Source of the DNA: Actinomadura nitritigenes
GTDB taxonomy: Bacteria > Actinomycetota > Actinomycetes > Streptosporangiales > Streptosporangiaceae
Reading direction: 5' to 3'
DNA length: 64,000 nucleotides
Assembly (NCBI RefSeq): GCF_017573545.1
Contig: NZ_JAGEOK010000001.1
Location: 248,001-312,000 of the forward strand
Each line of letters starts with the position of its first letter. Positions within the stretch are counted from its first letter, which is position 1. The position numbers and the translations under genes were made by a program. Shown here piece after piece: positions 7,857 to 45,900 of this stretch. The notes below the pieces were generated by a model, which made no database searches, was not told the DNA's origin, and saw only the letters and a list, made by a program, of their open reading frames with translations.

Positions 7857-7894
7857 CGCCGGGCGGCGGCGCGGGGGGCTCCCCGGGAGCGCCC

Positions 7895-7940
7895 TTGACC
7901 TCCCGCCCGCCGAAAGCTAATATCATTAGCCATAGGGCTA
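7895..7940 (+). promoter_or_regulatory. Strong promoter with palindromic operator over the -10
   Basis: TTGACC (7895-7900), a 17-bp spacer and TAATAT (7918-7923) form a near-consensus sigma-70 promoter for the alpha/beta hydrolase gene. The perfect inverted repeat GCTAATATCATTAGC (7916-7930) covers the -10, and a second one, TAGCC-ATAG-GGCTA (7927-7940), overlaps its right end. A repressor site is likely; the regulator is not identified. Confidence 0.65.
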
Positions 7941-7962
7941 CACCGATGAACCGGAGCGCGCC

Positions 7963-9194: not shown

Positions 9195-9306
9195 GGGAGG
9201 CAGCCTGTCACGGCGCGGCCGCGGTTCGCAGGCTCCCCCGCGCGGGCGAGGCGGATCGCTCCCGGGCGGGAGGACCGGCGGGGCGCGGTCCGGAAGGCTC
9301 GGACCC

Positions 9307-10440
9307 GTGGAAACGATCTTCAGACGGTGGCCCGCGTGGGCCGGGTACGCGGCCGGCGCGTGGGCGGCGGCCGCGGCGGCGCCGACCCTCTACTGGGCCG
9401 CCGGAGGGACGGCCGGTTACCCGCTGCGGGACGTGCGGGGCGCGCATGCGGCGGCCTGGCCGATCGGGGCGGTCCTGCTGGCCGGCGGGATCATGGCGGT
9501 GGCGAGCGTCCGGGACGTCGGGCGGCTCATGCCGCGCGGCTGGCCGCTCGCGGGGCTCTGGGCGGCCTGCGCGGTGGCGGGCGCGGGGACGTTCGGGATC
9601 GTCATGAGCGCGCTCCAGTTGCTGTTCACCGGGACGGTGGACGACTGGCGGGTGTTCGGCGTCGAGGCGTCCTGCGCGGTCGGCGCGGCCCTGTTCGCGG
9701 GAGCGGCCGCGGCGTTCCGCCGCCGGACCGAGGGGATGTGCGCGCGCTGCGGTCTCGTGCACGCCGCGACGGGGGCCGCGAAGGCCCCGGCGCCGGTGAC
9801 GGACGCGCCGCGCGGCGTCCGCCGGGCGGCGTACGCGGGCGCGCTGGCGTTCGTCCCGTACATGGCGATGAAGACGACGTGGGCGTTCGGCGGGACGTTC
9901 GCGGGGATCCCGGGCGACGAGGTCGTCGCGGAGTTCCGCCGCAACGGCGCGTCCGGGCCGGTGCTGACGCTGGAGAGGTACGGACTGGACTTCACCACGC
10001 TGTCGGCGCTCGCGGGGATCTTCCTGCTGCTCGGGCTGACGCACCGCTGGGGGCAGGTGTTCCCGCGCTGGGCCCCGCCGCTCGCGGGCCGCCGGGTGCC
10101 GCGCTGGCTCCCGCTCGTCCCGGCGTGGCTCGGCGCCGCGACGCTCGGCCCGTACGGGGTCGTGGGCGCGCTCGCCTACCTGCTGCCGATCGCCGCCGGC
10201 GTCCGGGACCTCCCGCACGACGGGCTCATCAGCGGATGGTCCGGGTGGACGGTCGCCGCGTGCGGGATCGGCGCGTTCGGCGTCTACGGGGTCGCGCTCG
10301 GCGCCGCCGCGCTGTCGTACCAGCGGCGGACCCGGCCCCGCTGCGCCGCCGCTCTCCCGGGGGACACCGCCCTTCCGGGAGACACCGTCCTTCCGGGGGA
10401 CGCCGCCGTCCGGGCCGCCGCGCCGGAGGTCAGTCCCTGA
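9307..10440 (+). CDS. Multi-pass membrane protein, unknown function
   Basis: A 377-aa integral membrane protein with about eight hydrophobic segments spread over residues 12-355 and no recognised family. A cytosolic-type loop carries CARCGLVH (C145, C148), a lone CxxC pair. The C-terminal tail holds three copies of a six-residue unit, LPGD followed by T or A, from an 18-bp DNA repeat. The GTG at 9307 places the first hydrophobic segment near the N-terminus. Its 3' end overlaps the convergent enoyl-CoA hydratase gene by 11 bp. Confidence 0.75.
   Translation: METIFRRWPAWAGYAAGAWAAAAAAPTLYWAAGGTAGYPLRDVRGAHAAAWPIGAVLLAGGIMAVASVRDVGRLMPRGWPLAGLWAACAVAGAGTFGIVMSALQLLFTGTVDDWRVFGVEASCAVGAALFAGAAAAFRRRTEGMCARCGLVHAATGAAKAPAPVTDAPRGVRRAAYAGALAFVPYMAMKTTWAFGGTFAGIPGDEVVAEFRRNGASGPVLTLERYGLDFTTLSALAGIFLLLGLTHRWGQVFPRWAPPLAGRRVPRWLPLVPAWLGAATLGPYGVVGALAYLLPIAAGVRDLPHDGLISGWSGWTVAACGIGAFGVYGVALGAAALSYQRRTRPRCAAALPGDTALPGDTVLPGDAAVRAAAPEVSP
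10351..10404 (+). repeat. Three tandem 18-bp repeats in a coding region
   Basis: Units at 10351-10368, 10369-10386 and 10387-10404 differ at a few positions and encode (A/V)LPGD(T/A) repeats in the C-terminal tail of the membrane protein. Repeat number probably varies between strains. Confidence 0.7.
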
Positions 10441-11233
10441 AGTCCGGCGGGCGGTTCTGCCTGCGCGCCGCGATCGCCTCGTCGAAGTTCTGCGTGGTGA
10501 GCCGGACGTACAGCTGCCCGAGGCCCTCCTGGCCCATGTGCGCGTCGAGGCTCGACGCGTCCAGCCCGGACCACAGCGACCGCTTGGTCAGCTCGACGCC
10601 GGGGCGGCTGAACCCGGCGATCCGCTCGGCGAGGTCGTAGCAGGCGTCCAGCAGCTTGTCGCCGGGGACGGTGCGGGAGACCAGCCCGATCCGCTCGGCC
10701 TCGGCGGCGTCCACGTCCCGGCCGGACAGCATGATCTCGAACGCGCGGGACGCGCCGATCGCGCGCGGCAGCAGGTAGCTGAGGCCGAGCTCGCTCGCGG
10801 TCAGCCCGTTGTTGATCCCGGCGGCGCGGAACAGCGCGGTCTCGGCCGCGAGGCGGATGTCGGCGGCCAGGCTCAGGCACATCCCGCCGCCGATCGCCGG
10901 CCCGTTGATCGCCGCGATCACCGGCTGGTGGACGCGGCGCATCGCACGGACGACGTCGTCCAGCAGCTCCATCGAGCGCAGCGCGATCGTCGACAGGGTC
11001 AGCCCGTCGATGCCGGGGAGCGCGCCGGGCGACTCCAGGTCGGCGCCCGAGCAGAAGCCGCGCCCGGCGCCGGTGATGACGACGGCGCGGGTGTCGTTGT
11101 CGCGGCTCACCTCGTCGAGGGCCTCGCGGAAGGGCACCATGACGTCGAACGCCATCGCGTTCATCCGCTCGGGCCGGTTGAGGGTGATGAGCGTGACGTG
11201 CGGGCGCGGCTTGTCGATCAGGACGAAGGGCAA
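10430..11233 (-). CDS. Enoyl-CoA hydratase/isomerase family protein
   Basis: A crotonase-fold protein of 267 aa that hydrates or isomerises enoyl-CoA thioesters. The oxyanion-hole segments are RGFCSGADL (residues about 58-66) and GPAIGGGMCLSLAADIRLA. ASELGLSYLLPR carries the glutamate usual for hydratases. The start codon is TTG at 11233, supported by GGGAGG five nt upstream and by the absence of a better start; proteins of this family begin close to here. A perfect palindrome lies 18-33 bp before the start. It follows a class II aldolase gene on the same strand after 33 bp. Confidence 0.87.
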   Translation of the reverse strand: MPFVLIDKPRPHVTLITLNRPERMNAMAFDVMVPFREALDEVSRDNDTRAVVITGAGRGFCSGADLESPGALPGIDGLTLSTIALRSMELLDDVVRAMRRVHQPVIAAINGPAIGGGMCLSLAADIRLAAETALFRAAGINNGLTASELGLSYLLPRAIGASRAFEIMLSGRDVDAAEAERIGLVSRTVPGDKLLDACYDLAERIAGFSRPGVELTKRSLWSGLDASSLDAHMGQEGLGQLYVRLTTQNFDEAIAARRQNRPPDFRD

Positions 11234-11250
11234 CGGGACCTCCCGGGTCG

Positions 11251-11266
11251 CCTAGCAAGCGCTAGG
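11251..11266. promoter_or_regulatory. Perfect palindrome CCTAGC-N4-GCTAGG, putative operator
   Basis: The 6-4-6 inverted repeat lies just upstream of the enoyl-CoA hydratase start and directly after the stop of the class II aldolase gene. It resembles TetR-family operators found before fatty-acid genes of actinobacteria. No T-tract follows, so it is less likely a terminator. Confidence 0.5.
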
Positions 11267-11911
11267 TTACACAGGCGGGAACTCCGGCGGCGTGAGCCCC
11301 CGCTCGACCACCTTCGCCAGCTGCTCGTCCGTCAGGATCCGGGGCTCCCCGATCGTCCTGGCCCGGACGTAGACGCCGCACAGCCATTCCAGCAGCCGCG
11401 CGTTCTCGAACGCCTCGTCCAGGTCGCGGCCGATCGTGACGCCGCCGTGGTTGGCCATCAGCGCGGCGCGCTTGCCGCCCGCCATCGCGGCCCGCACGTT
11501 CTCGGCCAGCTCCGGCGTCCCGTAGGTGGCGTACTCGGCGACCTTCACCACGCCGCCCAGCAGCAGCGTGTTGTAGTGGATCGGCGGCAGCTCGGTCATC
11601 GTCGTCGCGACGACGGCGCCGTAGGTCGAATGGGTGTGGACGATCGCCGCCGCGGGCGTCCCCCCGTACAGCGCGAGATGCATCGGCGTCTCCGACGACG
11701 GCGCCCGGTCGCCGTCCACGAGCCGGGCGTCCAGGTTCACGACCGGGCAGTCCTCCGGCCGCATCCGGTCGAGCATCATCCCGCCCGGCGTCACCGCGAC
11801 CAGGTCCCCCGACCGTACGCTGACGTTGCCCGACGCGCCGGTCACCAGGCCCGTCTCGGCCAGCCTGCGGCCCACCGCGCACAGCGCGCGCCGCTCGTCC
11901 TCCAGCAACAT
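11267..11911 (-). CDS. Class II aldolase/adducin family protein (fuculose-phosphate-aldolase-like)
   Basis: A 214-aa zinc-dependent class II aldolase or epimerase of the FucA/AraD group, cytosolic. The metal ligands are visible: H92 and H94 in VHTHSTYG and H155 in MANHGG, with E74 (SSETPMH) as the likely catalytic acid. GASGNVSVR near residue 25 is the phosphate-binding loop. The ATG at 11911 is preferred over the GTG at 11926 because AGAGGG lies 6 nt before it. It is divergent, 73 bp apart, from a PfkB sugar kinase, a pairing that suggests a small sugar or sugar-acid pathway of kinase plus aldolase (inference). Confidence 0.88.
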   Translation of the reverse strand: MLLEDERRALCAVGRRLAETGLVTGASGNVSVRSGDLVAVTPGGMMLDRMRPEDCPVVNLDARLVDGDRAPSSETPMHLALYGGTPAAAIVHTHSTYGAVVATTMTELPPIHYNTLLLGGVVKVAEYATYGTPELAENVRAAMAGGKRAALMANHGGVTIGRDLDEAFENARLLEWLCGVYVRARTIGEPRILTDEQLAKVVERGLTPPEFPPV

Positions 11912-11984
11912 GCGAATCCCTCTCACGTTCTCGGCCCTGCCCGTCGTACGCTACGGCCCTGACGATCACGAGGGAGAACCCGGC

Positions 11985-12902
11985 ATGGCAACTGTGGTCA
12001 CGGTCGGAGCGCACATCCTGGACGTGCTGGCCCGCCCCGTCGAGGGCATCCCCGGCGGCCAGGACACCGTGGTCGTCGACCAGATCCGGGTGACCGCCGC
12101 CGGCGCCGCCGCCGGGACCGCGGTCGCGCTCGCCCGGCTCGGCAACCGCGTCGTCTCGGTCGGCGCGATCGGCGACGACGACCTCGGCGACCTGCTCGTC
12201 ACGATCATGAACCGGAACGGGGTGGACGTCACCGGGCTCGTCCGCCGCACCGCCGAGCAGACCAGCGCGTCGATCCTGCCGATCCGCCCGGACGGCGGCC
12301 GGCCGAGCTTCCACGTCCCCGGCGCGAACCTCACCCTCACCGCGGGCGCGGTCGAGCCCGGCCTGCTCGCCGCCGCCGGCGCCGTCCACCTCGGCGGCCC
12401 CGACGTCACGTTCGGGCTGAACGACCCGGAGTTCTTCGCGGCGCTCGACGCGGCCCGCGCGTCCGGGACCGTCGTCACGATGGACCTGCTGTCCAACATG
12501 CCCGACCTGGTCCGGGGCGCCGCCGCGTTCCTCCCGCACGTCGACCACTTCCTGCCCAACGAGGAGCAGGCCGCGGCGATGACCGGCGAGGACGACCCGG
12601 AGAAGGCCGCGCGCGCCCTGCTCGCCGAGGGGCCCTCCTCGGTCGTCGTGACGCTCGGCGCGGAGGGCAGCCTCGTCGCGACCGCCGGCGGCGCGCACCG
12701 GCTGCCCGCCCTGCCCGTCGAGGTCGTCGACACCACCGGCTGCGGCGACGCGTACTGCGCCGGGTTCATCACCGGCCTGGGCCAGGGCCGGGACGTCCTG
12801 GAGTCGGCCCGCTGGGGCACCGCCGCCGCCGCGACCGTCGCCCAGGGCCTCGGCTCCGACGCCGGCCTCACCGGCCTCGACTCCGTCCTCGCGCTGCTTT
12901 GA
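11985..12902 (+). CDS. PfkB-family carbohydrate kinase
   Basis: A ribokinase-fold sugar kinase, 305 aa. The anion-hole and catalytic-base signature reads DTTGCGDAYCAGF, with D255 as base; the usual alanine of TGAGD is replaced by cysteine. The N-terminal GAHILDVLARP and AAGAAAGTAVALARLG blocks form the sugar-binding region, and LPNEEQAAAMTGEDD is the typical PfkB segment before the ATP site. GAGGGAG precedes the ATG by 9 nt. Divergent from the class II aldolase; the two may act in sequence on one sugar. Specificity is not predictable. Confidence 0.88.
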   Translation: MATVVTVGAHILDVLARPVEGIPGGQDTVVVDQIRVTAAGAAAGTAVALARLGNRVVSVGAIGDDDLGDLLVTIMNRNGVDVTGLVRRTAEQTSASILPIRPDGGRPSFHVPGANLTLTAGAVEPGLLAAAGAVHLGGPDVTFGLNDPEFFAALDAARASGTVVTMDLLSNMPDLVRGAAAFLPHVDHFLPNEEQAAAMTGEDDPEKAARALLAEGPSSVVVTLGAEGSLVATAGGAHRLPALPVEVVDTTGCGDAYCAGFITGLGQGRDVLESARWGTAAAATVAQGLGSDAGLTGLDSVLALL

Positions 12903-13082
12903 TTGCACTGCCCTCGGCGGTCGGGCGCTGGGCGCCCTCCCTTCAACGGGCACTGCGGCGATCGCTGCATCGCTCCGGCTCGCCCGGGGGCTCGCTGCGC
13001 GATCGGGTTCTCGCACGCTCGAACTCGGCTTCGCTCGCGATCGCAGCGCTTGGGGTGGGAGCGTGGCCGGGCGCGGGCTGAG

Positions 13083-13097
13083 GCATTCATCGAATGC
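13083..13097. terminator. Hairpin between convergent genes
   Basis: GCATTC-ATC-GAATGC lies at the 3' end of the acyl-CoA synthetase gene and downstream of the PfkB gene, where a shared terminator is expected. No T-tract. The rest of 12903-13082 holds GCGATCGC-rich sequence with no gene I can support. Confidence 0.35.
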
Positions 13098-14639
13098 TCA
13101 GCGGGCGTCCTGCCAGTAGGGGTCGCGGAGGAGGCGCTTGTAGAGCTTGCCGGTGGGGGTGCGCGGCATCGCGTCGACGAAGTCGACCGAGCGCGGCGCC
13201 TTGTAGCCGGCGAGCGACGCGCGGACGTGCCCGATCAGCTCGTCCGCGAGGGCGGCGGACGGCTCGGCGCCGTCGGCGAGCTCGACGGCGGCCTTCACCT
13301 GCTCGCCGAACTCCTCGTCCGGGACGCCGAACACCGCGACGTCGCGGACCGCCGGATGGGTGATCAGCACGCCCTCGATCTCGGCCGGGTAGATGTTCAC
13401 CCCGCCGCTGATGATCATGTCGATGACCCGGTCGGCGAGGAAGAGGTAGCCGTCCTCGTCCAGGTATCCGGCGTCGCCGGTGGTGAAGAGGCCGTCGGCG
13501 CGGTGCACCGAGCGGGTCTTCTCCTCGTCGCCCCAGTACTCCACGTCGTCGCCGCTGGCGTAGCGGAACCAGATCTGGCCGCGCTCCCCCGGCGCGGCGG
13601 GCTCGCCGTCCTCGCGCAGGACGTGCACCTCGGTGGTGGGCAGCGGGCGGCCGACGCTGCCGGGCCGCTCCAGCCACTCGGACGCGGTGATGACGCTGTT
13701 CACCGACGCCTCGGTGGAGCCGTAGTACTCGTGCACGATCGGGCCGAACCAGTCGATCATCCGGCGCTTGACGTCCGGGGAGCACGGCGCGGCGCCGTGC
13801 CAGACGGCCTTCAGGGAGGCGCCGTCGAACGCCTTGCGGGTCGCCTCGTCCAGCCGCAGCAGCCGGACGAACTGGGTCGGGACCAGGTGCACGTTGGTGA
13901 TCGCGTGCTCGTCGACGAGCCGCAGCGTCTCGGCGGCGTCGAAGCCGCGGCGCATCACCACCGACCGCCCGGCGAGCAGGAAGACGTGCGACCACAGCCA
14001 CTGCGCCGAGTGGTACACGGGCCCGACGAGCAGCGTGCGGCCGTTCTCCGGGATCCGCAGGACGCCCGCCATCAGGTCGCCGAGCAGCCGCGCGTTCTCG
14101 ATCGGGCCGCCCGCGGCGGTGAGCTTGCGGGTGACGCCCTTGGGACGGCCGGTGGTGCCGGACGTGTAGAACATCGGCAGCCCCGTGGACGGGTCGGCGA
14201 TCTCCTCCTCGGCGCCCGTCGCGAGGAACTCCTCGTACGGGGTGAAGCCGCCGGCCGGCTCGCCGAACACGACGCGCGCGGTGAGCCCGAGGCCGGCGGA
14301 CGCCTCGCGCGCGACGCCGGCGAAGGCGTCCTCGGTGAACAGCACGCGGGCCCCGGCGTCCTGGAGGACGTAGCGCAGCTCGTCGGCGGTCCAGTGCCAG
14401 TTGACCAGCACGTAGCGCAGGCCGATGTGGCCGGCCGCGCACATCGCCTCGAAGAACTCGCGCCGGTTGCCGGAGTGGATCGCGATCACGTCCCCGGTGG
14501 CCAGCCCCAGGCCGCGCAGCGCGTTCGCCAGCCGGTCGGTCCTGGCGTCCAGCTCGCGCCAGGTGGTGGTGCCGCGCTCGTCGGTCAGCGCGGGCTCGTC
14601 CGGACGGGCGTCGGCGTGCGGGCGGAGCAGTTCGGCCAT
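13098..14639 (-). CDS. Acyl-CoA synthetase (AMP-binding, FadD-like)
   Basis: ATP-dependent carboxylate-CoA ligase of 513 aa. The AMP-binding P-loop is YTSGTTGRPKGV, followed by YYGSTEAS, FTTGDAGYLDEDGYL and the C-terminal PRTPTGKLYKRLL with the catalytic lysine. The pattern fits FadD enzymes acting on fatty acids or steroid side chains, with no carrier domain. The ATG at 14639 has AGGAGG six nt upstream; more upstream starts are unsupported. A CTAGA-N7-TCTAG repeat lies just before it. It lies downstream of an ACT-domain gene on the same strand. Confidence 0.88.
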   Translation of the reverse strand: MAELLRPHADARPDEPALTDERGTTTWRELDARTDRLANALRGLGLATGDVIAIHSGNRREFFEAMCAAGHIGLRYVLVNWHWTADELRYVLQDAGARVLFTEDAFAGVAREASAGLGLTARVVFGEPAGGFTPYEEFLATGAEEEIADPSTGLPMFYTSGTTGRPKGVTRKLTAAGGPIENARLLGDLMAGVLRIPENGRTLLVGPVYHSAQWLWSHVFLLAGRSVVMRRGFDAAETLRLVDEHAITNVHLVPTQFVRLLRLDEATRKAFDGASLKAVWHGAAPCSPDVKRRMIDWFGPIVHEYYGSTEASVNSVITASEWLERPGSVGRPLPTTEVHVLREDGEPAAPGERGQIWFRYASGDDVEYWGDEEKTRSVHRADGLFTTGDAGYLDEDGYLFLADRVIDMIISGGVNIYPAEIEGVLITHPAVRDVAVFGVPDEEFGEQVKAAVELADGAEPSAALADELIGHVRASLAGYKAPRSVDFVDAMPRTPTGKLYKRLLRDPYWQDAR

Positions 14640-37255: not shown

Positions 37256-37969
37256 TCAGCCGGCGAGGCGGTCGAGCCATTCGGCGAGGAGGGCGGTCTC
37301 GGCGGGGCTGAGGCCGGAGGGCGGGTCGGCGGACAGGGCGGCGCGGAGGGCGACCGCGGACGCGGCGCGGGTGTCGCGGGGGTCCGGTCCGCTCGGGGGG
37401 TCCGGTTCGCTCCGGGCGCCGGCCGGGACGGTCACCGCGGCGAGGACGGCCTCGCGGGTGCGGGCGGACAGGTCGCCGCCGTCGTCGCCGTTCGCGATGA
37501 GGAAGAGCACGACGCCGACGCCGGCGGCCTGGATCATCCGCGCGGCGGCGTCCACGGAGACGCGGAGGCGGCCCGCGCGGGCGACGGCGCCGACGAGGCC
37601 GAGCAGGATGGCGTACGCCTCGTCGACGGCGGGCGTGGTGCGCGGCGTCCCGTACATCAGCGCGTAGACGGCCGGGTTCGTCAGGCCGAACTCGACGTGC
37701 ACGTCCCAGCCGTGCCGCAGGTCCTCGACCGGGTCGCCGGACGCGGCCATGGCGCGCTTGCCCGCCAGGTACTCCTCGAAGCCGCGGGCGGCGACGGCGT
37801 CGAACAGGCCCTGCTTGTCGCCGAAGTGGTGGTAGAGGGTGGGCGCGCCGACGCCCGCGGCGGCGCAGACGGCGCGGGTGGAGACGGGCTCGCCGCCGGA
37901 TTCGGCGATCAGCCGGGCGGCCGCCCGCAGGATGCGGTCCCGCCCGTCGGTGTCCTTCTGCGCGCTCAC
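37256..37969 (-). CDS. TetR/AcrR family regulator with WHG-type C-terminus
   Basis: A 237-aa regulator. The HTH is GRDRILRAAARLIAESGGEPVSTRAVCAAAGVGAPTLYHHFGDKQGLFDAV (about 9-60), and the ligand domain has FGLTNPAVYALMYG, typical of the WHG/TetR_C_33 group. The start is GTG at 37969, without ribosome site but 7 nt after TAGCAT on the minus strand, so the transcript may be leaderless. It is divergent from the zinc alcohol dehydrogenase; a CGATATATCG palindrome lies between them. It converges with the upstream TetR gene at a 42-bp gap. Confidence 0.85.
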   Translation of the reverse strand: MSAQKDTDGRDRILRAAARLIAESGGEPVSTRAVCAAAGVGAPTLYHHFGDKQGLFDAVAARGFEEYLAGKRAMAASGDPVEDLRHGWDVHVEFGLTNPAVYALMYGTPRTTPAVDEAYAILLGLVGAVARAGRLRVSVDAAARMIQAAGVGVVLFLIANGDDGGDLSARTREAVLAAVTVPAGARSEPDPPSGPDPRDTRAASAVALRAALSADPPSGLSPAETALLAEWLDRLAG

Positions 37970-38130: not shown

Positions 38131-39144
38131 ATGCGCAGCGCCGTTCTCACCGAAAAGGGCAAGCCGCTGGAGATCGTCGAGCGGGAGGTGCCGGAGCCGG
38201 GGCCCGGCGAGATCCTCGTCAGGGTCACCGCCTGCGGGATGTGCTTCTCCGAGGTCGGGCTGGTGCACGGGAACTACCCGTTCGCGCGGTTCCCGACCGT
38301 GCCGGGGCACGAGATCAGCGGGGTCGTCGAGGCGCTCGGGCCGGGCGTCGAGTGGCCCGAGCCCGGCACGCCGGTGGGCGGCCAGTGGATCTACGGCTCG
38401 TGCGGGCGCTGCGACCAGTGCGTGCGCGGGGACCAGATCCTGTGCACCGGCGCGCCCCGCCGGGTCACCGGGATCACCGACGACGGCGGGTACGCCGAGT
38501 ACTACATCGCCCGCGCCGGGTTCGTCACCCCGCTGCCCGCCGGCCTGGACCCGGTCGCCGCGGCGCCGCTGATGTGCGCCGGGATCACCGCGTTCAACGG
38601 GCTGCGGCACGCGGGCGCGACGGCCGGCTCGCGCGTCGCGGTGCTCGGCACCGGCGGCGTCGGGGAGATGGCGATCCGGTTCGCGGCCGCGATGGGCGCC
38701 CGCGTCGCCGCGGTGTCCCGGTCGCGCCGCGCCGAGAACGAGACGCGCCGCCGGGGCGCCGAACTCTACGTCGCCACCGACGAGCAGGACCCGGCCGACG
38801 CGCTGCGGAACTGGGGCGGAGCCGACGTCATCGTGAACACCACGCCGAGCACCGCGCCCGCGCAGGCCGCGCTCGGCGGCGTCGCGCCGGACGGCACCCT
38901 GCTGTTCCTCGGCGTCGGCGCCGACCACCTGGAGGTGGCGCCCGGCCTCCTCGTGATGAACCGGGTGCGGGTGATGGGCACCCCGTCGGGGTCCCCGCAC
39001 GACCTGCGCGACACCCTCGCGTTCGCCGCCGCGCACGGGATCCTCCCGGACGTCACCCCGGTCACCCTGGACGAGGCGCCCGCCGTCCTCGCCACGATGG
39101 TCGAGGGCCGCCACCACGGCCGGTCCGTCATCACGTTCGGCTGA
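38131..39144 (+). CDS. Zinc-dependent alcohol dehydrogenase
   Basis: A 337-aa medium-chain dehydrogenase. Catalytic zinc ligands are C35 (ACGMCFSE) and the histidine of GHEISG. The structural zinc loop is CGRCDQCVRGDQILC. The NAD(P) Rossmann motif is VLGTGGVGEMA (about 170-180). This is the ADH group acting on primary alcohols or 2,3-diols; the substrate is unknown. GAGAGGAACGCGAG precedes the ATG. Divergent from a WHG-type TetR, the probable regulator. It overlaps the convergent amidase gene by 14 bp. Confidence 0.88.
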   Translation: MRSAVLTEKGKPLEIVEREVPEPGPGEILVRVTACGMCFSEVGLVHGNYPFARFPTVPGHEISGVVEALGPGVEWPEPGTPVGGQWIYGSCGRCDQCVRGDQILCTGAPRRVTGITDDGGYAEYYIARAGFVTPLPAGLDPVAAAPLMCAGITAFNGLRHAGATAGSRVAVLGTGGVGEMAIRFAAAMGARVAAVSRSRRAENETRRRGAELYVATDEQDPADALRNWGGADVIVNTTPSTAPAQAALGGVAPDGTLLFLGVGADHLEVAPGLLVMNRVRVMGTPSGSPHDLRDTLAFAAAHGILPDVTPVTLDEAPAVLATMVEGRHHGRSVITFG

Positions 39145-40525
39145 ACCGCCTCCACGGCCGCGCCTGCTCGTAGGCACGGCAGGCGGCCATGACCAGGGCG
39201 TCGGCGTGCCGGGCGCCGACGACCTGGAGGCCGACGGGCAGCCCGTCCGCGGTGAACCCGCACGGCAGGCTCGCGGCGGGCTGCTGGGTCATGTTGAACG
39301 GGTAGGTGAACGGCGTCCAGGACGTCCACCGGGGCGACGGCGAGCCCGGCGGGACCTCCAGCCCCGCCTCGAACGCGGCGATCGGCATCGTCGGGGTGAG
39401 CAGCAGGTCGTAGCGGTCGTGGAACCGCCCCATGATCCGGCCGAGCTCCATGCGGCGCGCGGTCGCGGTGAGGTACTCGACGGCCGAGTAGCGGGCGCCC
39501 TGCTCGCAGATCTCGCGCAGGCCGGGGTCGAGCCGGGCCCGCTGCTCGGGGGCGAGGTGCTCGACCACCTTCGCGGCGCCGGCGAACCAGAGCACCTCGA
39601 AGTCGGCGACGGGATCGGCGAAGCCCGGAGCGGCCTGCTCCACCTTGGCGCCCAGCTCGGTGAACGCCTCGGCCGCGGCGGCCACCGAGGCCGCCACCTC
39701 AGGGTCGACCCGGGCGAAGCCGAGGTCGGGGCTGAAGGCGACGCGCAGCCCGGTGAGGTCGCGCGGCCCCCCGCCGGTGAACGGGTCGGCGGGCGGCGGC
39801 AGGGACGACCAGTCCCGCGCGTCGGCGCCGCACACGGCGTCCAGCAGCAGCTCCGCGTCCGCGACGGTGTTGGTCATCGGCCCGGTGTGCGCGAGCGTCC
39901 CGAACGGGCTCGCCGGGTAGTGCGGGATGCGGCCGTAGGTCGGCTTGATGGTGAAGGTCCCGGTGAACGCGGCGGGGATGCGCACCGAGCCGCCGCCGTC
40001 GGTGCCGAGCGCGAGCGGCGCCATGCCCGCCGCGACGGCCGCCGCCGCGCCGCCGCTGGACCCGCCGGGCGTACGGGCGGTGTCCCACGGGTTGCGGGTG
40101 ATCCCGGTGAGCGGGTTGTCGGTGACGCCCTTCCACGCGAACTCCGGCGTGGTCGTCTTGCCGACGAACACCGCGCCCTGCTCGCGCAGCCGCGCGACGG
40201 ACGGGGCGTCCTCCGTCCACGGCCCGGCGGGGTCGATCGTCGTGGACCCGCGCAGCGTCGGCCAGCCGCGGGTGAGCAGCACGTCCTTGATCGAGACGGG
40301 CACGCCGTCGAGCGTCCCGAGGGTCTCGCCGCGCCGCCACCGCTCGGCCGAGGCCCGCGCCGCCTCCAGCGTGGCGTCCGGGTCGAGCAGGCAGAACGCG
40401 TTGAGCTCGGGGTCGTCCCGGTCGATCCGCGCGAGGACGGCCTCGGCGGCCTCGACGGGCGAGAGCTCCTTCGCCCGGTACGCCTCCAGCAGCTCGACGG
40501 CGGTCAGGTCTGCCGCGTCCGTCAT
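39131..40525 (-). CDS. Amidase (amidase signature family)
   Basis: A 464-aa amidohydrolase. The Ser-cisSer-Lys triad is K80 (VSIKDV), S156 (GGSSGG) and S180 (TDGGGSVRIP), with the 24-residue serine spacing of the family. It would hydrolyse an amide to acid plus ammonia in the cytosol. The ATG at 40525 is fixed by GAGGAGG. It starts 5 nt after the 2-hydroxyacid dehydrogenase stop, so the two form an operon, transcribed from a promoter that shares its GntR operator with the divergent DUF3830-isomerase operon. It therefore probably acts in the same pathway, perhaps supplying a dicarboxylate. Confidence 0.88.
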   Translation of the reverse strand: MTDAADLTAVELLEAYRAKELSPVEAAEAVLARIDRDDPELNAFCLLDPDATLEAARASAERWRRGETLGTLDGVPVSIKDVLLTRGWPTLRGSTTIDPAGPWTEDAPSVARLREQGAVFVGKTTTPEFAWKGVTDNPLTGITRNPWDTARTPGGSSGGAAAAVAAGMAPLALGTDGGGSVRIPAAFTGTFTIKPTYGRIPHYPASPFGTLAHTGPMTNTVADAELLLDAVCGADARDWSSLPPPADPFTGGGPRDLTGLRVAFSPDLGFARVDPEVAASVAAAAEAFTELGAKVEQAAPGFADPVADFEVLWFAGAAKVVEHLAPEQRARLDPGLREICEQGARYSAVEYLTATARRMELGRIMGRFHDRYDLLLTPTMPIAAFEAGLEVPPGSPSPRWTSWTPFTYPFNMTQQPAASLPCGFTADGLPVGLQVVGARHADALVMAACRAYEQARPWRRFSRT

Positions 40526-40530
40526 GGCGG

Positions 40531-41559
40531 TTACCTCCTCTGCCCGGCGTACGGGCTCGGTGCGGCCCCGGCGTCCGGGCGCACGTAGCCCAGCCGCTTG
40601 TCGACGACGTTGCGCAGCTCGCGGCCGTGCACGAACCGGTCGAGGTTGTCGGTGAACAGCCGGACCAGCTCGTCGCGCCAGCCGACGGCGTCCCCCGACA
40701 TGTGCGGCGACACGATCACGCCGGGCATGGCCCACAGCGGCGAGGACGGCGCGAGCGGCTCGTCCACGAACACGTCGAGCGCCGCGCCCGCGATGCGGCC
40801 GGCGCGCAGCGCCTCGACCAGGTCGTCCTCGGCGACCAGCGGCCCGCGCCCGACGTTGATCAGCCGCGCGGACGGCCGCATCCGGGCGAGCGCCGCGGCG
40901 TCGACCATGTTCCGGGTGGCGGGGGTGAGCGGCGCGGCGAGCACGACGTAGTCGGCCTCGGCGAGCGCGTCGTGCAGCCGCTCCATCGGGTGGACGACGC
41001 CGAAGTCGGGGTCGCCCTCGCGGGCGGTGCGGCCCGCGCCCGCCACGCGCAGCCCGGCGGCGGCGAGCCGGCGGGCGATGGCGCGGCCGATCGGCCCGGT
41101 GCCGGCGACCAGCGCGCGGGCCCCGGTGATCCGCTCGGTCTCGCGGTGCCGCCAGCGCCGCTCGTCCTGCAACCGGACGGTGGCCGGCAGGTCCTTGGCG
41201 AAGGCGAGCACCAGGCCGAGGACGTATTCGGCGATCGGCTCGTCGAACACCCCTCGCGAATTGGTGACGATGGTGTTGCTCTCCACCAGGTCAGGGAAGA
41301 GCAGGCGGTCGACGCCGGCGCTCGCGATGTGGACCCAGCGGGGACCGCCCTCGCGGGGCCACGCCGCCGCCAGCGCGTCCGACCAGAAGTCCCACATGAA
41401 CAGCGCGTCGCAGCCGGGAAGGGCGCCCGCGAGCTGCGGTTTCCGCACGTAGACGACCTGCGCGAGGCGCTCGGCGGCCGCCATCCCGGGCGGCGGGACG
41501 TCGTCCCGGAGCACCACCACGCGGGGCGGCTCACCGGACGCGTTCGGACCTGGCTCCAT
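40531..41559 (-). CDS. D-isomer-specific 2-hydroxyacid dehydrogenase
   Basis: A 342-aa NAD(P)-dependent dehydrogenase of the D-2-hydroxyacid (GhrA-like) family. The NAD motif is VAGTGPIGRAIARRLA. The catalytic arginine lies in INVGRGPLV, the glutamate in DVFVDEPL and the histidine in VSPHMSGDAVGW. It reduces a 2-keto acid or oxidises a D-2-hydroxy acid. It is the first gene of the minus-strand operon with the amidase, driven by TTGACA-17-TAGCGT whose -35 lies inside the GntR operator at 41638-41651. Confidence 0.87.
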   Translation of the reverse strand: MEPGPNASGEPPRVVVLRDDVPPPGMAAAERLAQVVYVRKPQLAGALPGCDALFMWDFWSDALAAAWPREGGPRWVHIASAGVDRLLFPDLVESNTIVTNSRGVFDEPIAEYVLGLVLAFAKDLPATVRLQDERRWRHRETERITGARALVAGTGPIGRAIARRLAAAGLRVAGAGRTAREGDPDFGVVHPMERLHDALAEADYVVLAAPLTPATRNMVDAAALARMRPSARLINVGRGPLVAEDDLVEALRAGRIAGAALDVFVDEPLAPSSPLWAMPGVIVSPHMSGDAVGWRDELVRLFTDNLDRFVHGRELRNVVDKRLGYVRPDAGAAPSPYAGQRR

Positions 41560-41612: not shown

Positions 41613-41651
41613 TTGACACGCTAGGAACGCTTCGTAGGATTGTCAACAATC
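41613..41651. promoter_or_regulatory. Face-to-face promoters sharing one GntR operator
   Basis: Plus strand: TTGACA (41613-41618), 16 bp, TAGGAT (41635-41640). Minus strand: TTGACA (41646-41641), 17 bp, TAGCGT (41623-41618). The palindrome GATTGT-CA-ACAATC (41638-41651) overlaps the plus -10 and the minus -35, so one bound regulator would block both. The 41652-41807 leader holds no separate gene I can support. Confidence 0.75.
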
Positions 41652-41807: not shown

Positions 41808-42302
41808 ATGCCCAGGCTCATGACCATCTCACTGGAGAAGCGCGGCGTGTCCTGCGTCGCCGAACTCCTCGAGAAGGACGCGCCGCGCACCTGCGAGGCG
41901 GTATGGCGCGCCCTGCCGCTCGGCGGGGACGCGTACCACGCCAAGTACGCCCGCAACGAGGTCTACACGATGGTGGAGCGGTTCGCCGAGGACGAGATCG
42001 GGCTGGAGAACCCGACGGTGACACCGATCCCCGGCGACGTCGTCTACTTCTCCTTCCACGGCGGCATGCTCGACCGGGCGTTCAAGGAGGAGAAGAACAT
42101 CCACGAGCTGCCCGGCGTCATCGACCTCGCGATCTTCTACGGCCGCAACAACCTGCTGCTGAACGGCGACGTCGGCTGGGTGCCCGGCAACGTGTACGCG
42201 ACGATCGTCGACGGGCTGGACCGGATGGCCGAGGCGTGCAACGACGTCTGGCGGTCCGGCGCCGTCGGCGAGCGCCTGGTCTACCGCCGGCACGAGTCCT
42301 AG
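41808..42302 (+). CDS. DUF3830 family protein (cyclophilin-like)
   Basis: A 164-aa protein of DUF3830, a cyclophilin-like beta-barrel family of unknown activity. Conserved features are LPLGGDAYHAKYARNEVYTMV, PGDVVYFSFHGGML and FYGRNNLLLNGDVGWVPGNVYATI. Members are usually found beside amidase, racemase and GntR genes, as here. It is the first gene of the plus-strand operon. The ATG at 41808 has GGGGAGG 5 nt upstream and a leader of about 160 nt. A binding or accessory role for the isomerase pair is possible (inference). Confidence 0.84.
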   Translation: MPRLMTISLEKRGVSCVAELLEKDAPRTCEAVWRALPLGGDAYHAKYARNEVYTMVERFAEDEIGLENPTVTPIPGDVVYFSFHGGMLDRAFKEEKNIHELPGVIDLAIFYGRNNLLLNGDVGWVPGNVYATIVDGLDRMAEACNDVWRSGAVGERLVYRRHES

Positions 42303-42306
42303 AGCG

Positions 42307-43080
42307 GTGGCCGCGCAGATGACATTCGACCCCACGCTGGTCGTCGGGCCCGAGCTGGTGGCGCAGCAGGGCATCGGCGTGGTCGCGCCGTTCGACTTCG
42401 CGCTCGACCGCGAGCTGTGGCGGTGGACCCCCGACGACGTGTCGCTCTTCATGACCCGGCTGCCGTACGTCCCGGTGCCCGTCACCGTCGAGATGGCCTC
42501 GGCGCTGTCGGACCACTCGATCGTCCGGCAGGCGACCCGGGACGTGCTCGCGCCGGAGCCGCTCGCGGTCGCCTACGCCTGCGCGTCCGGCAGCTTCATC
42601 CGCGGCAGGGCCGGCGAGCTGGCGCTGCACAGCACGATGGCCGCGGCGGGCGCGCCCGCGGTCGCGACCACGTCCGGCGCGCTGGTGGAGTCGCTGCGGC
42701 TGCTGAACGCGGGCCGGATCGCGGTGGTGACGCCCTACATCGACGCGGTCACCGAGCGGCTCGTCTCGTTCCTCGGCGAGTACGGCATCGAGGTGGTGTC
42801 GTCGGTCGGGATGGGGCTGCTCAGCCACATCTGGAAGGTCGGCTACGGCGAGATCGTCAGCGCGGTCTCGTCGGTGGACCGGCCCGAGGCCGAGGCGGTC
42901 TTCATCAGCTGCACCAACGTGCCGACCTACGACATCATCGCCCCGCTGGAGCAGATGATCGGCAAGCCGGTGCTCACCGCCAACCAGGTCACCATGTGCT
43001 CGGCGCTGCGCGCGATGGGCCGCGCGGCGGCCGGTCCCGGGCAGTGGCTGGTGCAGCTCGGCAGCCCGACGGCCGCCTGA
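42307..43080 (+). CDS. Maleate cis-trans isomerase-like protein (Asp/Glu racemase superfamily), two-cysteine form
   Basis: A 257-aa cofactor-independent enzyme of the aspartate/glutamate racemase superfamily, in the maleate isomerase/arylmalonate decarboxylase branch. Both catalytic cysteines are present: C92 in YACASGSF and C202 in FISCTNVPTYD. It could isomerise or racemise a dicarboxylate or alpha-substituted acid. GTG at 42307 is 4 nt after the DUF3830 stop; ATG 42319 is possible. It is homologous to the next gene, with shared blocks (GKPVLTANQV). Confidence 0.85.
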   Translation: MAAQMTFDPTLVVGPELVAQQGIGVVAPFDFALDRELWRWTPDDVSLFMTRLPYVPVPVTVEMASALSDHSIVRQATRDVLAPEPLAVAYACASGSFIRGRAGELALHSTMAAAGAPAVATTSGALVESLRLLNAGRIAVVTPYIDAVTERLVSFLGEYGIEVVSSVGMGLLSHIWKVGYGEIVSAVSSVDRPEAEAVFISCTNVPTYDIIAPLEQMIGKPVLTANQVTMCSALRAMGRAAAGPGQWLVQLGSPTAA

Positions 43081-43115
43081 CGTCCCATGATCGGCAAAGG
43101 CATGATCGATCAAGT

Positions 43116-43130
43116 TAGGATTGTCGACAA
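43116..43130 (+). promoter_or_regulatory. Second GntR operator with internal -10
   Basis: TAGGAT (43116-43121) is followed by the perfect palindrome TTGTCGACAA (43121-43130), ending one base before the ATG at 43132. A weak internal promoter with near-leaderless start is likely; no good -35 is seen. Confidence 0.6.
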
Positions 43131-43131
43131 C

Positions 43132-43899
43132 ATGCAGCACAATGGTCCCGCCGCGGGGTTCCTCTACCCCGGCCGCAGCGCCGAGGACGACTACCCCGCG
43201 ATCGAGCGCGCGCTGGGCGACGTCAGCCTGCCGGTCGTGCACACGCTGATGCGCGAGGACGCCCACCGGGTGGACGCGCTGCTGGACATCGGCGGCGACG
43301 ACGTGCTCGGCGAGGGCGCCCGCGCGCTGCGCGCGATGGGCGTGCTCGCCGCCGTGTGGGCGTGCACGAGCGGCAGCTTCGTGTTCGGCTGGGACGGCGC
43401 CGCCGCGCAGGTCCGGGGCGTCCGCGACGCCGCGGGCGTGCCCGCGTCCAGCACGTCGTTCGCGTTCGTGCACGCGGCCCGCGCGCTCGGCCTGCGCCGG
43501 GTCGCCGTGGCCGCGACCTATCCGGCCGACGTCGCCGAGCGGTTCGGCGCGTTCCTCGGCCACGCCGGCATCGAGGTGGTGGCGCTGTCCTGCCGGGGCA
43601 TCGTCACCGCCGCCGAGGTCGGCACCCTCGGCCGCGACGAGGTCCTGGAGTTCGTCGCGGCCAACGACCATCCCGACGCCGAGGCGGTGCTGGTGCCCGA
43701 CACCGCGCTGCACACCGTGGCCTGGCTCGACGAGCTGGAGCGACGGGTCGGCAAGCCGGTGCTCACCGCCAACCAGGTGAGCGTGTGGGAAGGGCTGCGG
43801 CTCGCCGCCGGCCGGGCCGGGCTCGCGCCGCGCGCCGGGCTCGGCCGGCTGTTCGCCGCCCCCGCCCCGGCGCCGGGAGCAGATCCCTGGCAGCTATGA
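43132..43899 (+). CDS. Maleate isomerase-like paralog lacking the second catalytic cysteine
   Basis: A 255-aa paralog of the preceding protein. The first cysteine is kept (C78, VWACTSGSF), but the second position is aspartate D190 (LVPDTALHT instead of ISCTNVPT). Classical two-cysteine racemisation is therefore impossible; it could be a decarboxylase-like or hydratase-like variant, or a non-catalytic partner of the first paralog. The ATG at 43132 directly follows an operator; in-frame ATGs at 43087 and 43102 lie before it and would put the operator inside the gene. The GntR gene follows after 16 nt. Confidence 0.84.
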   Translation: MQHNGPAAGFLYPGRSAEDDYPAIERALGDVSLPVVHTLMREDAHRVDALLDIGGDDVLGEGARALRAMGVLAAVWACTSGSFVFGWDGAAAQVRGVRDAAGVPASSTSFAFVHAARALGLRRVAVAATYPADVAERFGAFLGHAGIEVVALSCRGIVTAAEVGTLGRDEVLEFVAANDHPDAEAVLVPDTALHTVAWLDELERRVGKPVLTANQVSVWEGLRLAAGRAGLAPRAGLGRLFAAPAPAPGADPWQL

Positions 43900-43915: not shown

Positions 43916-44575
43916 ATGGGCCGGTTGGGTGAGCTGGAACCCGTCCCGCGCAGGTCGACGGTCGAGATCGTGTCCGACGAGCTGCGCTCGGCGATCATGT
44001 ACGGGGCGCTGGAGCCGGGCGCGCAGCTCGGCGAGGCGGAGCTGGCCGCGCGGCTCGGCATCAGCCGCGGCCCGCTGCGCGAGGCGATGCAGCGCCTCGT
44101 CCAGGAGGGACTGCTGGTCAGCGAGCCGCACCGCGGCCTCTTCGTGATCACCTTGGACGAGGGCGACGTCGAGGACGTCTACCTCACCCGGCTGGCCATC
44201 GAGCGGGCCGCCTGCCAGCTGATCATGCAGCGCAACCGGGGCGAGGCGGTCGCCCGGCTCACCGAGGCCCTGGAGGCGCTGATCGACGCGGCGCGCGAGC
44301 GGGACCGGGTCGCGATGAGCGACGCCGACCAGGCGTTCCACGAGGTGCTGGTCAGCTCGTCCGGCAGCCCGCGGCTGGAGCGGATGGCGCACACGCTGCT
44401 GGTGGAGACGCGGATGTGCCTGAACGCGCTGCAGGACACCTACCCCGAGCCGTCGGAGCTGGTCGAGGAGCACCGCCGGCTGGTGGACGCGATCGGCGAC
44501 GGCGAGGAGGAGCGGCTGCTCCAGCTGATCGAGGAGCACATGACCGACTCGATCCACCGCCTGCGCGCCTCGTAG
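43916..44575 (+). CDS. GntR family regulator, FCD domain
   Basis: A 219-aa regulator. The winged HTH (about 12-80) reads STVEIVSDELRSAIMYGALEPGAQLGEAELAARLGISRGPLREAMQRLVQEGLL. The FCD ligand domain (about 90-215) has the metal-binding type pattern with DADQAFHEVLV, EEHRRLVDAI and EEHM. It very probably binds the three TTGTCRACAA operators at 41638, 43121 and 44618, and so controls the amidase-dehydrogenase operon, the DUF3830-isomerase operon (including itself) and the aminotransferase. The effector is probably a pathway acid. AAAGGGG precedes the ATG. Confidence 0.88.
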   Translation: MGRLGELEPVPRRSTVEIVSDELRSAIMYGALEPGAQLGEAELAARLGISRGPLREAMQRLVQEGLLVSEPHRGLFVITLDEGDVEDVYLTRLAIERAACQLIMQRNRGEAVARLTEALEALIDAARERDRVAMSDADQAFHEVLVSSSGSPRLERMAHTLLVETRMCLNALQDTYPEPSELVEEHRRLVDAIGDGEEERLLQLIEEHMTDSIHRLRAS

Positions 44576-44586
44576 GAGGGGTCCCC

Positions 44587-44633
44587 TGGACATCCGGTCC
44601 CGGGCGACCTAGCGTGCAGATTGTCGACAATCT
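44587..44633 (+). promoter_or_regulatory. Third GntR operator downstream of the aminotransferase promoter
   Basis: TGGACA (44587-44592), 17 bp, TAGCGT (44610-44615), then the perfect 16-bp palindrome AGATTGTC-GACAATCT (44618-44633), placed over the expected transcription start. Confidence 0.75.
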
Positions 44634-44646
44634 ACCGGAGGACGCG

Positions 44647-45900
44647 ATGGCTCAGCTCTCACCCCTGCTCAAGCAGGCCACCCCCGTCCTGGCCGAGCGC
44701 GGCGAGGGGGTCTACCTCTACGACGCCGACGGCCGCCGCCACCTGGACTTCACCGCGGGCATCGGCGTCACCAACACGGGGCACTGCCATCCGCGCGTCG
44801 TGGAGGCGGCGCGCGAGCAGGTCGGCACGCTGATCCACGGCCAGTACACGACGGTGATGCACCGGCCGCTGCTGCGCCTGGTCGAGGCGCTCGGCGACGT
44901 CCTGCCGGACGGCCTGGACTCGCTGTTCTTCCTCAACAGCGGCAGCGAGGCCGTCGAGGCCTCCATCCGGCTCGCCCGGCACGCCACCGGGCGGCAGAAC
45001 ATCGTCGTCTTCCACGGCTCCTTCCACGGGCGGACGATGGGCGCCGCCGCCCTCACGACCGCGGGCACCAAGTTCCGCGCGGGCATCGGCCCGCTGATGC
45101 CGGGCGTCGCCGTCGCGCCGTTCCCGCAGGCCTACCGGTACGGGTGGGACGAGGACGAGGCGACCCGGTTCGCGCTGCGCGAGCTGGACTACGCGCTCGC
45201 CACGTCCAGCCCCGCGTCCGACACCGCCGCGTTCGTCGTCGAGCCGGTGCTCGGCGAGGGCGGCTACATCCCGGCGCCGCCCGCGTTCCTGGAGGGGCTG
45301 CGCGAGCGCGCCGACCGGCACGGGATCCTGCTCGTGGTGGACGAGGTGCAGACCGGGTACGGCCGGACGGGCCGGTTCTGGGGCCACCAGCACGCGGCGG
45401 TCCGTCCCGACGTGCTGATCACCGCGAAGGGGCTGGCCAGCGGGTTCCCGCTGTCGGCGATCGCGGCGCCGACGGCGCTGATGGAGAAGGCGTGGCCGGG
45501 CTCGCAGGGCGGCACCTACGGCGGCAACGCGGTCGCGTGCGCCGCCGCGCTCGCCACCCTGGAGGTGATCCGGGACGAGAACCTGGTCGAGAACGCGGCG
45601 GTGCTCGGCGCCCGGCTGAACGAGGGCCTGCGCGAGGTCGCGGCCGACCATCCGGAGATCGGCGACGTGCGCGGCCTCGGGCTGATGCAGGCCTGCGAGT
45701 TCAGCACGCCGGACGGCGAGCCCGACACGGCCGCCGCCCAGCGCGCCCACCGCGCGGCCGCCGAGCAGGGACTGCTGCTGCTCACGTGCGGCGCGTTCGG
45801 CAACGTCGTCCGGATGATCCCGCCGCTGGTGGTGGACGCGTCCCAGATCGACGACGCCCTCGCGCTGTGGGCCAAGGCGGTCGCCGGCGCGGCCGGCTAG
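44647..45900 (+). CDS. Class III aminotransferase (4-aminobutyrate aminotransferase-like)
   Basis: A 417-aa PLP aminotransferase of subgroup II. The PLP lysine is K261 (LITAKGLASG), with D232 (LVVDEVQTGYGRTG) and NSGSEAVEASIRLAR as the phosphate loop. It transfers an omega- or distal amino group to 2-oxoglutarate, giving a semialdehyde. The GGAGGA before the ATG and the operator upstream place it in the GntR regulon. A beta- or gamma-amino acid arising from the amidase/isomerase pathway is a possible substrate (inference). It overlaps the convergent small membrane gene by 4 bp. Confidence 0.87.
   Translation: MAQLSPLLKQATPVLAERGEGVYLYDADGRRHLDFTAGIGVTNTGHCHPRVVEAAREQVGTLIHGQYTTVMHRPLLRLVEALGDVLPDGLDSLFFLNSGSEAVEASIRLARHATGRQNIVVFHGSFHGRTMGAAALTTAGTKFRAGIGPLMPGVAVAPFPQAYRYGWDEDEATRFALRELDYALATSSPASDTAAFVVEPVLGEGGYIPAPPAFLEGLRERADRHGILLVVDEVQTGYGRTGRFWGHQHAAVRPDVLITAKGLASGFPLSAIAAPTALMEKAWPGSQGGTYGGNAVACAAALATLEVIRDENLVENAAVLGARLNEGLREVAADHPEIGDVRGLGLMQACEFSTPDGEPDTAAAQRAHRAAAEQGLLLLTCGAFGNVVRMIPPLVVDASQIDDALALWAKAVAGAAG

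Follow-up and report, generated by a model that had tools for sequence, protein, structure and literature searches.

A putative GntR regulon of Actinomadura nitritigenes, possibly for ectoine catabolism, with a racemase-type protein carrying a conserved cysteine/aspartate pair

Maleate isomerases and the two-cysteine racemases carry two catalytic cysteines, and the one-cysteine members described keep the second of these. Arylmalonate decarboxylase (AMDase), which has Gly74 in place of the first cysteine (PMC4996985, Tables 4 and 5), keeps C188, and its engineered G74C/C188S variant makes the opposite enantiomer (PMC12576825); EcL-DER has the unbalanced pair Thr83/Cys197, and in OpaE the C90S exchange left 4.8% activity and C199S 0.3% or less (PMC12661438). 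The ectoine/5-hydroxyectoine catabolic operon ehuABCD-eutABCDE is a further point of reference (PMC5924519, PMC13188858), and putative Gram-positive ectoine catabolic clusters are presented as provisional, without biochemical confirmation, in a 2026 survey that began from EutD and EutB (PMC13188858); these statements follow the accessible parts of the papers cited. Our literature search gave no paper treating maleate isomerase, AMDase, cysteine and superfamily together, no title on Gram-positive ectoine catabolism was among the matches listed, and the accessible part of PMC13189361 makes no mention of ehu, degradation or catabolism. Here we analyse two adjacent genes of the maleate isomerase/AMDase fold, P1 and P2, in a 64,000-nucleotide stretch of Actinomadura nitritigenes (the window; contig NZ_JAGEOK010000001.1, positions 248,001 to 312,000), from a 10.6 Mb genome; the named relatives closest to it at this locus all belong to Actinomadura.

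The best explanation of the whole, to which we give a probability of about 0.5, is that P1 and P2 belong to one GntR-controlled regulon catabolising an ectoine-type solute, and that P2 is an asymmetric enzyme based on Asp190. The regulon would comprise an amidase (AMI), a 2-hydroxyacid dehydrogenase (HADH), a DUF3830 protein, P1, P2 and a class-III aminotransferase (AT3), joined in many relatives by an SSADH-like gene.

Both genes lie on the forward strand. P1 (42307 to 43080) carries C92 and C202, numbered from its GTG start at 42307, and P2 (43132 to 43899) has C78 and D190, just as a preliminary description had reported. The open reading frame (ORF) of P2 opens at an ATG at 43087, from which the same residues are C93 and D205; the ATG at 43132 is probably the better start, with the first 15 codons of the ORF untranslated, because the four preceding codons (IVDN) read through a palindrome at 43121 to 43130, further copies of which precede other cluster genes, and because alignments with the remoter orthologs start around residue 18-23 of the long form. 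In phmmer and profile alignments, C78 of P2 aligns to position 74 of AMDase and D190 to position 188. The preliminary description had called it unusual to keep the first cysteine only, and the examples of AMDase and EcL-DER given above agree with this. The sole other cysteine of P2, C154 (C169 by long-form numbering), is present in 30 of 77 orthologous rows, as against 68 for C78, and we reject it as an alternative active-site residue; the placing of another cysteine in the active site, which would have overturned the assignment, was not seen.

The conservation of the two sites was followed in 68 P1 rows and 77 P2 rows (76 fetched sequences, 29 of them from the window's genus, and the window), and in a named set made of the window and the 80 loci closest to P2, which were picked for likeness to P2 and overlap in species with the 77 rows. 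An earlier set of 52 P2 rows holds the window copy more than once (L001, L002; L and G numbers are our handles for loci and genomes), and the 77-row set is quoted instead. Structure alignment A3 contains 36 of the 80 named orthologs and A4 contains 30 of the 76, each plus the window. Both cysteines of P1 are present in 68/68 rows, and in 77/77 rows of the named set. The second site of P2 is Asp in 74/77 rows, Gly in 3/77 and Cys in none, and the first site is Cys in 68/77 and Ser in 9/77; C78 and D190 are both present in 81/81 sequences of the 80 named loci and the window. The cysteine/aspartate arrangement of P2 is not a matter of chance. In the 37 rows of A3, Asp190, Thr191, His194 and the stretch TANQV (212-216) are invariant.

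Eight of the nine Ser-type P2s contain no cysteine whatsoever. Four belong to one distant family, f21 (L137, L142, L143, L153), and have AMI, HADH, DUF3830, P1 and GntR genes; the other five come from one genus, g72 (L149, L154-L157), and P1, AMI, DUF3830 and GntR were not found at those loci. The site pair is S/G in L149 and L154 and C/G in L150. A plasmid protein of the alphaproteobacterium Nitratireductor thuwali (41% over 70%) has the same Cys/Asp pair as P2. Because Asp is found in 74/77 rows and Cys in 68/77, and in view of the Ser-type rows and the Nitratireductor pair, the second-site aspartate is, as judged from the alignments, the mark of the P2 family, and the first-site cysteine the softer residue. 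The idea that the remaining cysteine defines the chemistry of P2 is not supported by these rows, and the earlier emphasis on a lost cysteine has to be turned round, since Asp is kept more strictly than Cys: the surprise lies less in that loss than in the retained aspartate, in relatives that have no cysteine and in the regulon with its tie to ectoine-type solutes. As separate observations, a Glu/Leu-dehydrogenase-like gene lies in the cluster of the four f21 loci, where P1 keeps both cysteines and P2 is a Ser/Asp form free of cysteine, and in the g72 loci L149, L150 and L154-L157 P2, with Ser and/or Gly at its sites, adjoins ehuBCDA. These g72 copies are apparently decaying or re-purposed.

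The cluster is held together by a short palindrome. The window contains exactly three copies of TTGTNNACAA, one in the divergent promoter between HADH and DUF3830 (palindrome-like TTGTCAACAA, 41640 to 41649), one immediately 5' of the P2 start codon (TTGTCGACAA, 43121 to 43130) and one 5' of the aminotransferase gene (TTGTCGACAA, 44621 to 44630), so that the promoters of dehydrogenase-amidase/DUF3830-P1, of P2-GntR and of the aminotransferase are all marked; we propose all three as GntR operators. Palindromes of the TTGTYRACAA kind are usual for FCD-type GntR proteins. In the 1,551,179 bases of the 80 named loci TTGTYRACAA occurs 162 times, whereas three control patterns built in the same way occur 1, 0 and 5 times. 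Inside the cluster it was found at all 65 named loci with the GntR gene and at one of the 15 without (L182), and in a second locus set at 36 of 37 loci with the gene and at none of ten without. This co-occurrence of site and gene suggests that the GntR protein of the cluster binds TTGTYRACAA, and a response to an inducer would be expected of it.

The whole genome holds six distinct TTGTCRACAA sites. Two of the three further ones lie inside ORFs and the third 77 nt before a PIG-L gene; genome-wide, a reversed control pattern gave 4 strand-hits and TTGTCRACAA 10, and at this background level we dropped the three as regulon members. The third, TTGTCAACAA at G000:C15:143489-143498 (L281, L287), precedes a PIG-L / RraA-like / PrpF gene run, which we take to resemble the gallate (galBCD-type) lower pathway, and may be there by chance. 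At another locus (L128, G342:C54:6501-26500), positions 8728-10185 hold an additional gene resembling P1 (50% to P1), and behind it on the same strand comes a GntR-like stretch (40%); TTGTCGACAA lies upstream of this gene at 10175, another palindrome lies at 7243, and a ProP-like transporter gene is nearby. This second set is perhaps a reduced copy of the same regulon.

The link to ectoine comes from relatives of the window. In L047 (G341), P2 is divergent from ehu genes, with the palindrome in the shared promoter, and these genes lie above the NCBIfam equivalog cut-offs (EhuB 256.0, EhuC 254.2, EhuD 280.4 and EhuA 378.3 bits). The palindrome also stands between P2 and ehuB in L048, L126 and L127, and upstream of ehuB in L144. 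In Streptomyces, ehu genes adjoin P1/P2 at 12 of the 15 named loci (L215, L224-L226, L229, L230, L232-L236 and L239; not L208, L214 and L237). Microlunatus speluncae (L227) has the order P1, M24, M20, P2, in which the M20 gene encodes an ArgE/DapE deacylase and the M24 gene a 396-aa stretch that is EutD-like over its full length; in NCBIfam this stretch matches, at E <= 1e-20, no families but the two for ectoine hydrolase (393.6 bits, cut-off 613). At L125, an EutD-like gene (421.6 bits, cut-off 613) adjoins P1. In addition, a Sinorhizobium plasmid carries a P1-like gene (37%) about 5 kb from ehuCDAB, beside an aldehyde dehydrogenase gene and an aminotransferase gene annotated ectB. Through the shared operator-like site and the synteny, the cluster is thus connected with ectoine/hydroxyectoine transport and, at a small number of loci, with an ectoine-hydrolase-like gene, and a pathway that the preliminary description could not recognise can be placed.

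Co-occurrence agrees with this. Among 345 genomes of the order, P2 (positive at E <= 1e-60) was found in 128, EhuB in 157 and ectoine synthase in 167; the genome lists were copied by hand from the search tables, and the EhuB and EctC totals equal the printed tallies (157 and 167). Of the P2-positive genomes, 122 have EhuB, 122 ectoine synthase, 126 at least one of the two and 2 neither. Counted by hand over genera, EhuB occurs in 20/21 of those with P2 and in 12/49 of the others. Four genomes (G149, G156, G180, G341) have P2 and EhuB and no ectoine synthase at threshold, which fits consumption without production. In the host genome itself, ehuA-D adjoin ectD, ectC, ectB and ectA on a separate contig (C48; L129, G000:C48:12001-32000, about 7587-14142), away from the window's cluster, and the organism probably makes and imports ectoine and hydroxyectoine.

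From these elements a pathway can be proposed. The substrate, for which ectoine and/or 5-hydroxyectoine or one of their breakdown products is the likeliest candidate, would be imported by Ehu or another carrier, its opening and de-amidation would be carried out by an EutD-like enzyme, a deacylase or the amidase, and transamination and oxidation by AT3 and the SSADH-like enzyme. A carboxylate that is chiral and probably hydroxylated would be rearranged by P1 and P2, and HADH would contribute to the redox step. P1, with its two cysteines, would be an enzyme akin to EutA, the maleate isomerases and the racemases, and given the Cys/Cys pair it would probably catalyse a reversible proton transfer, as a racemase, epimerase or isomerase. 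In P2, Asp190 would serve one face of the bound carboxylate substrate as general acid/base, and the opposite face would be held or protonated by Cys78 (in some lineages Ser) together with Thr79/Ser80; such an asymmetric pair would lead to a one-way step (elimination, decarboxylation or tautomerisation) and not to racemisation. A new reaction is possible for P2. A bolder form of the proposal, an actinomycete ectoine/5-hydroxyectoine regulon (FCD-type GntR, TTGTYRACAA) that does largely without EutB/EutD and includes a new branch of the Asp/Glu-racemase superfamily with Asp-based catalysis and a dispensable cysteine, we put forward tentatively, at clearly less than even odds.

Several observations weigh against this reading. 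One locus has the GntR gene without the site (L142) and another the site without a GntR match (L182), and the Streptomyces-type loci with ehu genes beside P1/P2 have neither. The EutD-like genes of relatives score 394-422 bits, below the cut-off of 613, and such a gene is present in only 1/80 named loci. In the host genome the best EutD (DoeA) match reaches 56.6 bits against 613, and in a search for EutB, which did not extend to EutC and EutE, none of 14 genomes (the host and 13 others) passed the cut-off (best 286, cut-off 413); we reject canonical EutD in the former and EutB in the latter. The ehu/ectABCD locus of the host contains no palindrome, and the transporter link rests on the relatives. 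The co-occurrence is given as raw and genus counts, otherwise uncorrected for phylogeny, and within the window's genus 10 of the 12 genomes that have no P2 contain both EhuB and EctC. Other solutes may be handled by Ehu-type genes, and some P2s may be inactive, given the Gly at D190 in 3/77 rows and the Ser at C78 in 9/77. No structure of P2 was in the PDB list searched, and P2 was found in only 24 of 396 genomes of a phylum-wide sample (E <= 1e-20).

Part of this evidence would also suit a regulon directed at some other compound, amino-acid-like or an amide, for which an Ehu-type importer was co-opted. The sub-threshold EutD and EutB scores favour such a view, as does the gene content, since the annotation of the S. 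meliloti ehu-eut region shows no amidase, no hydroxyacid dehydrogenase and no DUF3830. It is countered by the operator-like site that the Ehu equivalogs share with the cluster, by the EutD-like and deacylase genes inside the cluster (although in few loci) and by the co-occurrence in 126/128 genomes; we regard a different substrate as quite possible, if somewhat short of probable.

For the chemistry of P2, the best rival to an Asp190-based enzyme is a natural mirror image of AMDase, that is, a cofactor-free malonate-type decarboxylase that protonates from Cys78 in the manner of the engineered G74C/C188S variant, the maker of the opposite enantiomer. AMDase variants are the best sequence matches of P2 and stand at the top of its structure lists. 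The AlphaFold2 models (pLDDT 92.0 and pTM 0.92 for P2, 88.0 and 0.87 for P1) were compared with known structures, and for P2 the top match by Foldseek and VIA was 3IXL, the G74C/C188S variant itself (E 2.3e-17, Z 31.6, rmsd 2.2, 231 residues); its lead is a tie, however, of 0.1 Z over wild-type AMDase 3DG9 (Z 31.5, rmsd 2.1, 227 aligned, 29% identity) and 0.2 over maleate isomerase 4FQ5 (Z 31.4). With the P1 model, Foldseek placed maleate isomerase first, with 4IX1 and AMDase close behind. A shared predicted fold does not by itself show a function.

The residues of P2 agree with AMDase in part. The dioxyanion-hole residues T75, S76 and Y126 are retained as T79, S80 and Y130, but G189 is T191, and in the profile alignment, of which the N-terminal part with L40, V43 and Y48 is not reliably aligned, the pocket residues V156 and M159 correspond to A160 and V163. 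In the stretches that correspond approximately to the hydrophobic pocket, the polar residues D43, H45, R46 and E162 are invariant in A3. Both proteins pass the gathering score of the Pfam family PF17645 (25.9 bits; P1 83.7, P2 91.7 in its long form), and neither reaches the AMDase NCBIfam cut-off (NF052327, 225 bits; P1 85.2, P2 93.5) or that of the EutA equivalog (TIGR02990, 318 bits; P1 99.5, P2 93.5). At position 74, where Table 4 of the accessible text of PMC4996985 lists Gly for AMDase, both have Cys; at the proton donor Cys188, P2 has Asp (74/77) and P1 has Cys202, which leaves P1 apart from AMDase by Gly74 and the cut-off. The two catalytic cysteines of the maleate isomerases and two-cysteine racemases are present throughout P1 and in none of the 77 P2 rows. 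Finally, the natural Cys-to-Ser forms of P2 speak against a dependence on the thiol, and a mirrored AMDase seems to us unlikely.

Still less favoured is a one-way racemase or epimerase with an unbalanced Cys78/Asp190 pair, a mirrored EcL-DER. The Thr/Cys pair of EcL-DER indicates that an unbalanced pair can work (accessible part of PMC12661438), in the same fold as the P2 model, but the two-cysteine P1 already looks like the racemase of the set, and Ser occupies the first site in 9/77 rows; the latter is not decisive, as OpaE with Ser at this site keeps some activity according to the same source.

That P2 is a pseudoenzyme, a non-catalytic partner or a sensor, is in our judgement more doubtful again. 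The variation at both sites in some lineages (S/G in L149 and L154, C/G in L150) and the cysteine-free Ser types would suit it, but Asp190 and the other A3 residues named above are invariant, no P1, AMI, DUF3830 or GntR was found at the loci of the S/G and C/G forms, and P2 persists at loci that have neither P1 nor DUF3830 (G102, G097, G341).

The genomic distribution and the phylogeny separate P1 from P2. We calculated a maximum-likelihood tree of 49 sequences, from which a Halomonas fragment was left out and in which in-frame stops of tblastn fragments were changed to X and the X letters deleted. P1 (14 rows) and P2 (19 rows) are each monophyletic with 99/99 support, P2 joins the Nitratireductor and Rhizobium jaguaris proteins with 100/99, and the EutA pair of S. 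meliloti and Leisingera stands apart, with no supported join to P1 or P2. The exact sister of P2 (Nitratireductor, Rhizobium jaguaris or the Sinorhizobium P1-like protein) is uncertain owing to long branches. By this tree P1 and P2 are two old, separate subfamilies; a recent duplication of P1 into P2 is rejected, and with it the description of the genes as a duplicate pair whose second copy lost one cysteine. P2 is scattered in the order (128/345 genomes) and not universal, and the carriers of the cluster include Actinomadura, Nocardiopsis, Pseudonocardia, Saccharopolyspora and Streptomyces. In a search with a P1 profile over the whole assembly, nine of the 20 genomes chosen have P2 and no P1 ortholog (G102, G097, G341, G367, G537, G526, G451, G713, G590); in the first three the Cys and Asp of P2 are intact, and G102 and G097 have the order AMI-HADH-P2-GntR-SSADH-AT3, without P1 and DUF3830. 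An obligate P1-P2 heteromer, which the preliminary description had suggested and for which adjacent genes, a shared fold and conceivably complementary active-site halves could be cited, is therefore very unlikely and is rejected, because P2 occurs without any P1 ortholog and the two genes can lie 2-10 kb apart (L050, L049, L139, L126) or be divergent (L142).

The remaining genes of the proposed regulon surround the pair. On the reverse strand lie AMI (39131 to 40561), an amidase of the signature family (PF01425, 348 bits) and PRK06169 equivalog (NF004815, 774 bits, cut-off 506) that is kept in the cluster of relatives and whose start codon is provisional, and the conserved HADH (40531 to 41559; PF02826, 172 bits), a D-isomer-specific enzyme encoded divergently from DUF3830-P1. 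On the forward strand, the DUF3830 gene (41808 to 42302; PF12903, 214 bits) precedes P1, and P2 is followed by the FCD-type GntR gene (43916 to 44575; PF07729 and PF00392), whose presence tracks the palindrome, and by AT3 (44647 to 45900; PF00202, 407 bits), with a proposed ATG at 44647 preceded by GGAGG and, in many relatives, an SSADH-like gene as partner. A literature search gave no paper naming DUF3830. Next to the amidase lie a zinc alcohol dehydrogenase gene (38131-39144) and a TetR gene (37256-37969), with no palindrome in the window; this arrangement occurs in only 7 of the 80 named loci, all Actinomadura, and both genes are probably outside the regulon. In one part of the order (L035, L042, L045, L046, L051, L052 and others) a MadR-like response regulator gene, below the family cut-off where tested (L035), stands beside the amidase end, in several loci together with one for a MadS-like sensor kinase.

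A survey based on EutD and EutB would probably miss this cluster in most genomes, as an EutD-like gene is so rare among the named loci. The cluster offers a concrete actinomycete regulon whose operator, inducer and mutant phenotype can be put to the test, gives DUF3830 a genomic context, and through its natural Cys-to-Ser variants shows what this fold may do without thiols.

Compared with known systems, the cluster resembles the ehuABCD-eutABCDE operon in EhuABCD (here in relatives), an Asp/Glu-racemase-type gene, an aminotransferase, an SSADH-like gene and a GntR-superfamily regulator, but neither EutD (in the host genome) nor EutB (in 14 genomes) passes its cut-off, the cluster has instead an amidase, a 2-hydroxyacid dehydrogenase, a DUF3830 protein and one more gene of racemase type, and its regulator is an FCD-type GntR and not the MocR/GabR-type EnuR. 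EutA of Sinorhizobium meliloti (TIGR02990) is of the same superfamily, is encoded beside ehuABCD, has the Cys/Cys pair of P1 and is 34% identical to it over 82%, but both P1 and P2 remain far below its cut-off and apart from it in the tree. With the maleate cis-trans isomerases (2XEC, 4FQ5, NdpH) P1 shares the fold and the two catalytic cysteines at 20-26% identity, whereas P2 lacks the second cysteine. AMDase of Bordetella bronchiseptica (PF17645, NF052327) is like P2 in predicted fold, best matches and the equivalents of T75/S76 and Y126; its G74, C188 and G189 are, in contrast, Cys, Asp and Thr in P2, and P1 has Cys at both sites. The engineered G74C/C188S form (3IXL), like the P2 of the window, has Cys at the first site only, but its second site is Ser where P2 has a conserved Asp, and it was made in the laboratory for arylmalonates. 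The cysteine arrangement built into AMDase to invert its stereochemistry thus occurs naturally in P2, where a conserved aspartate lies opposite.

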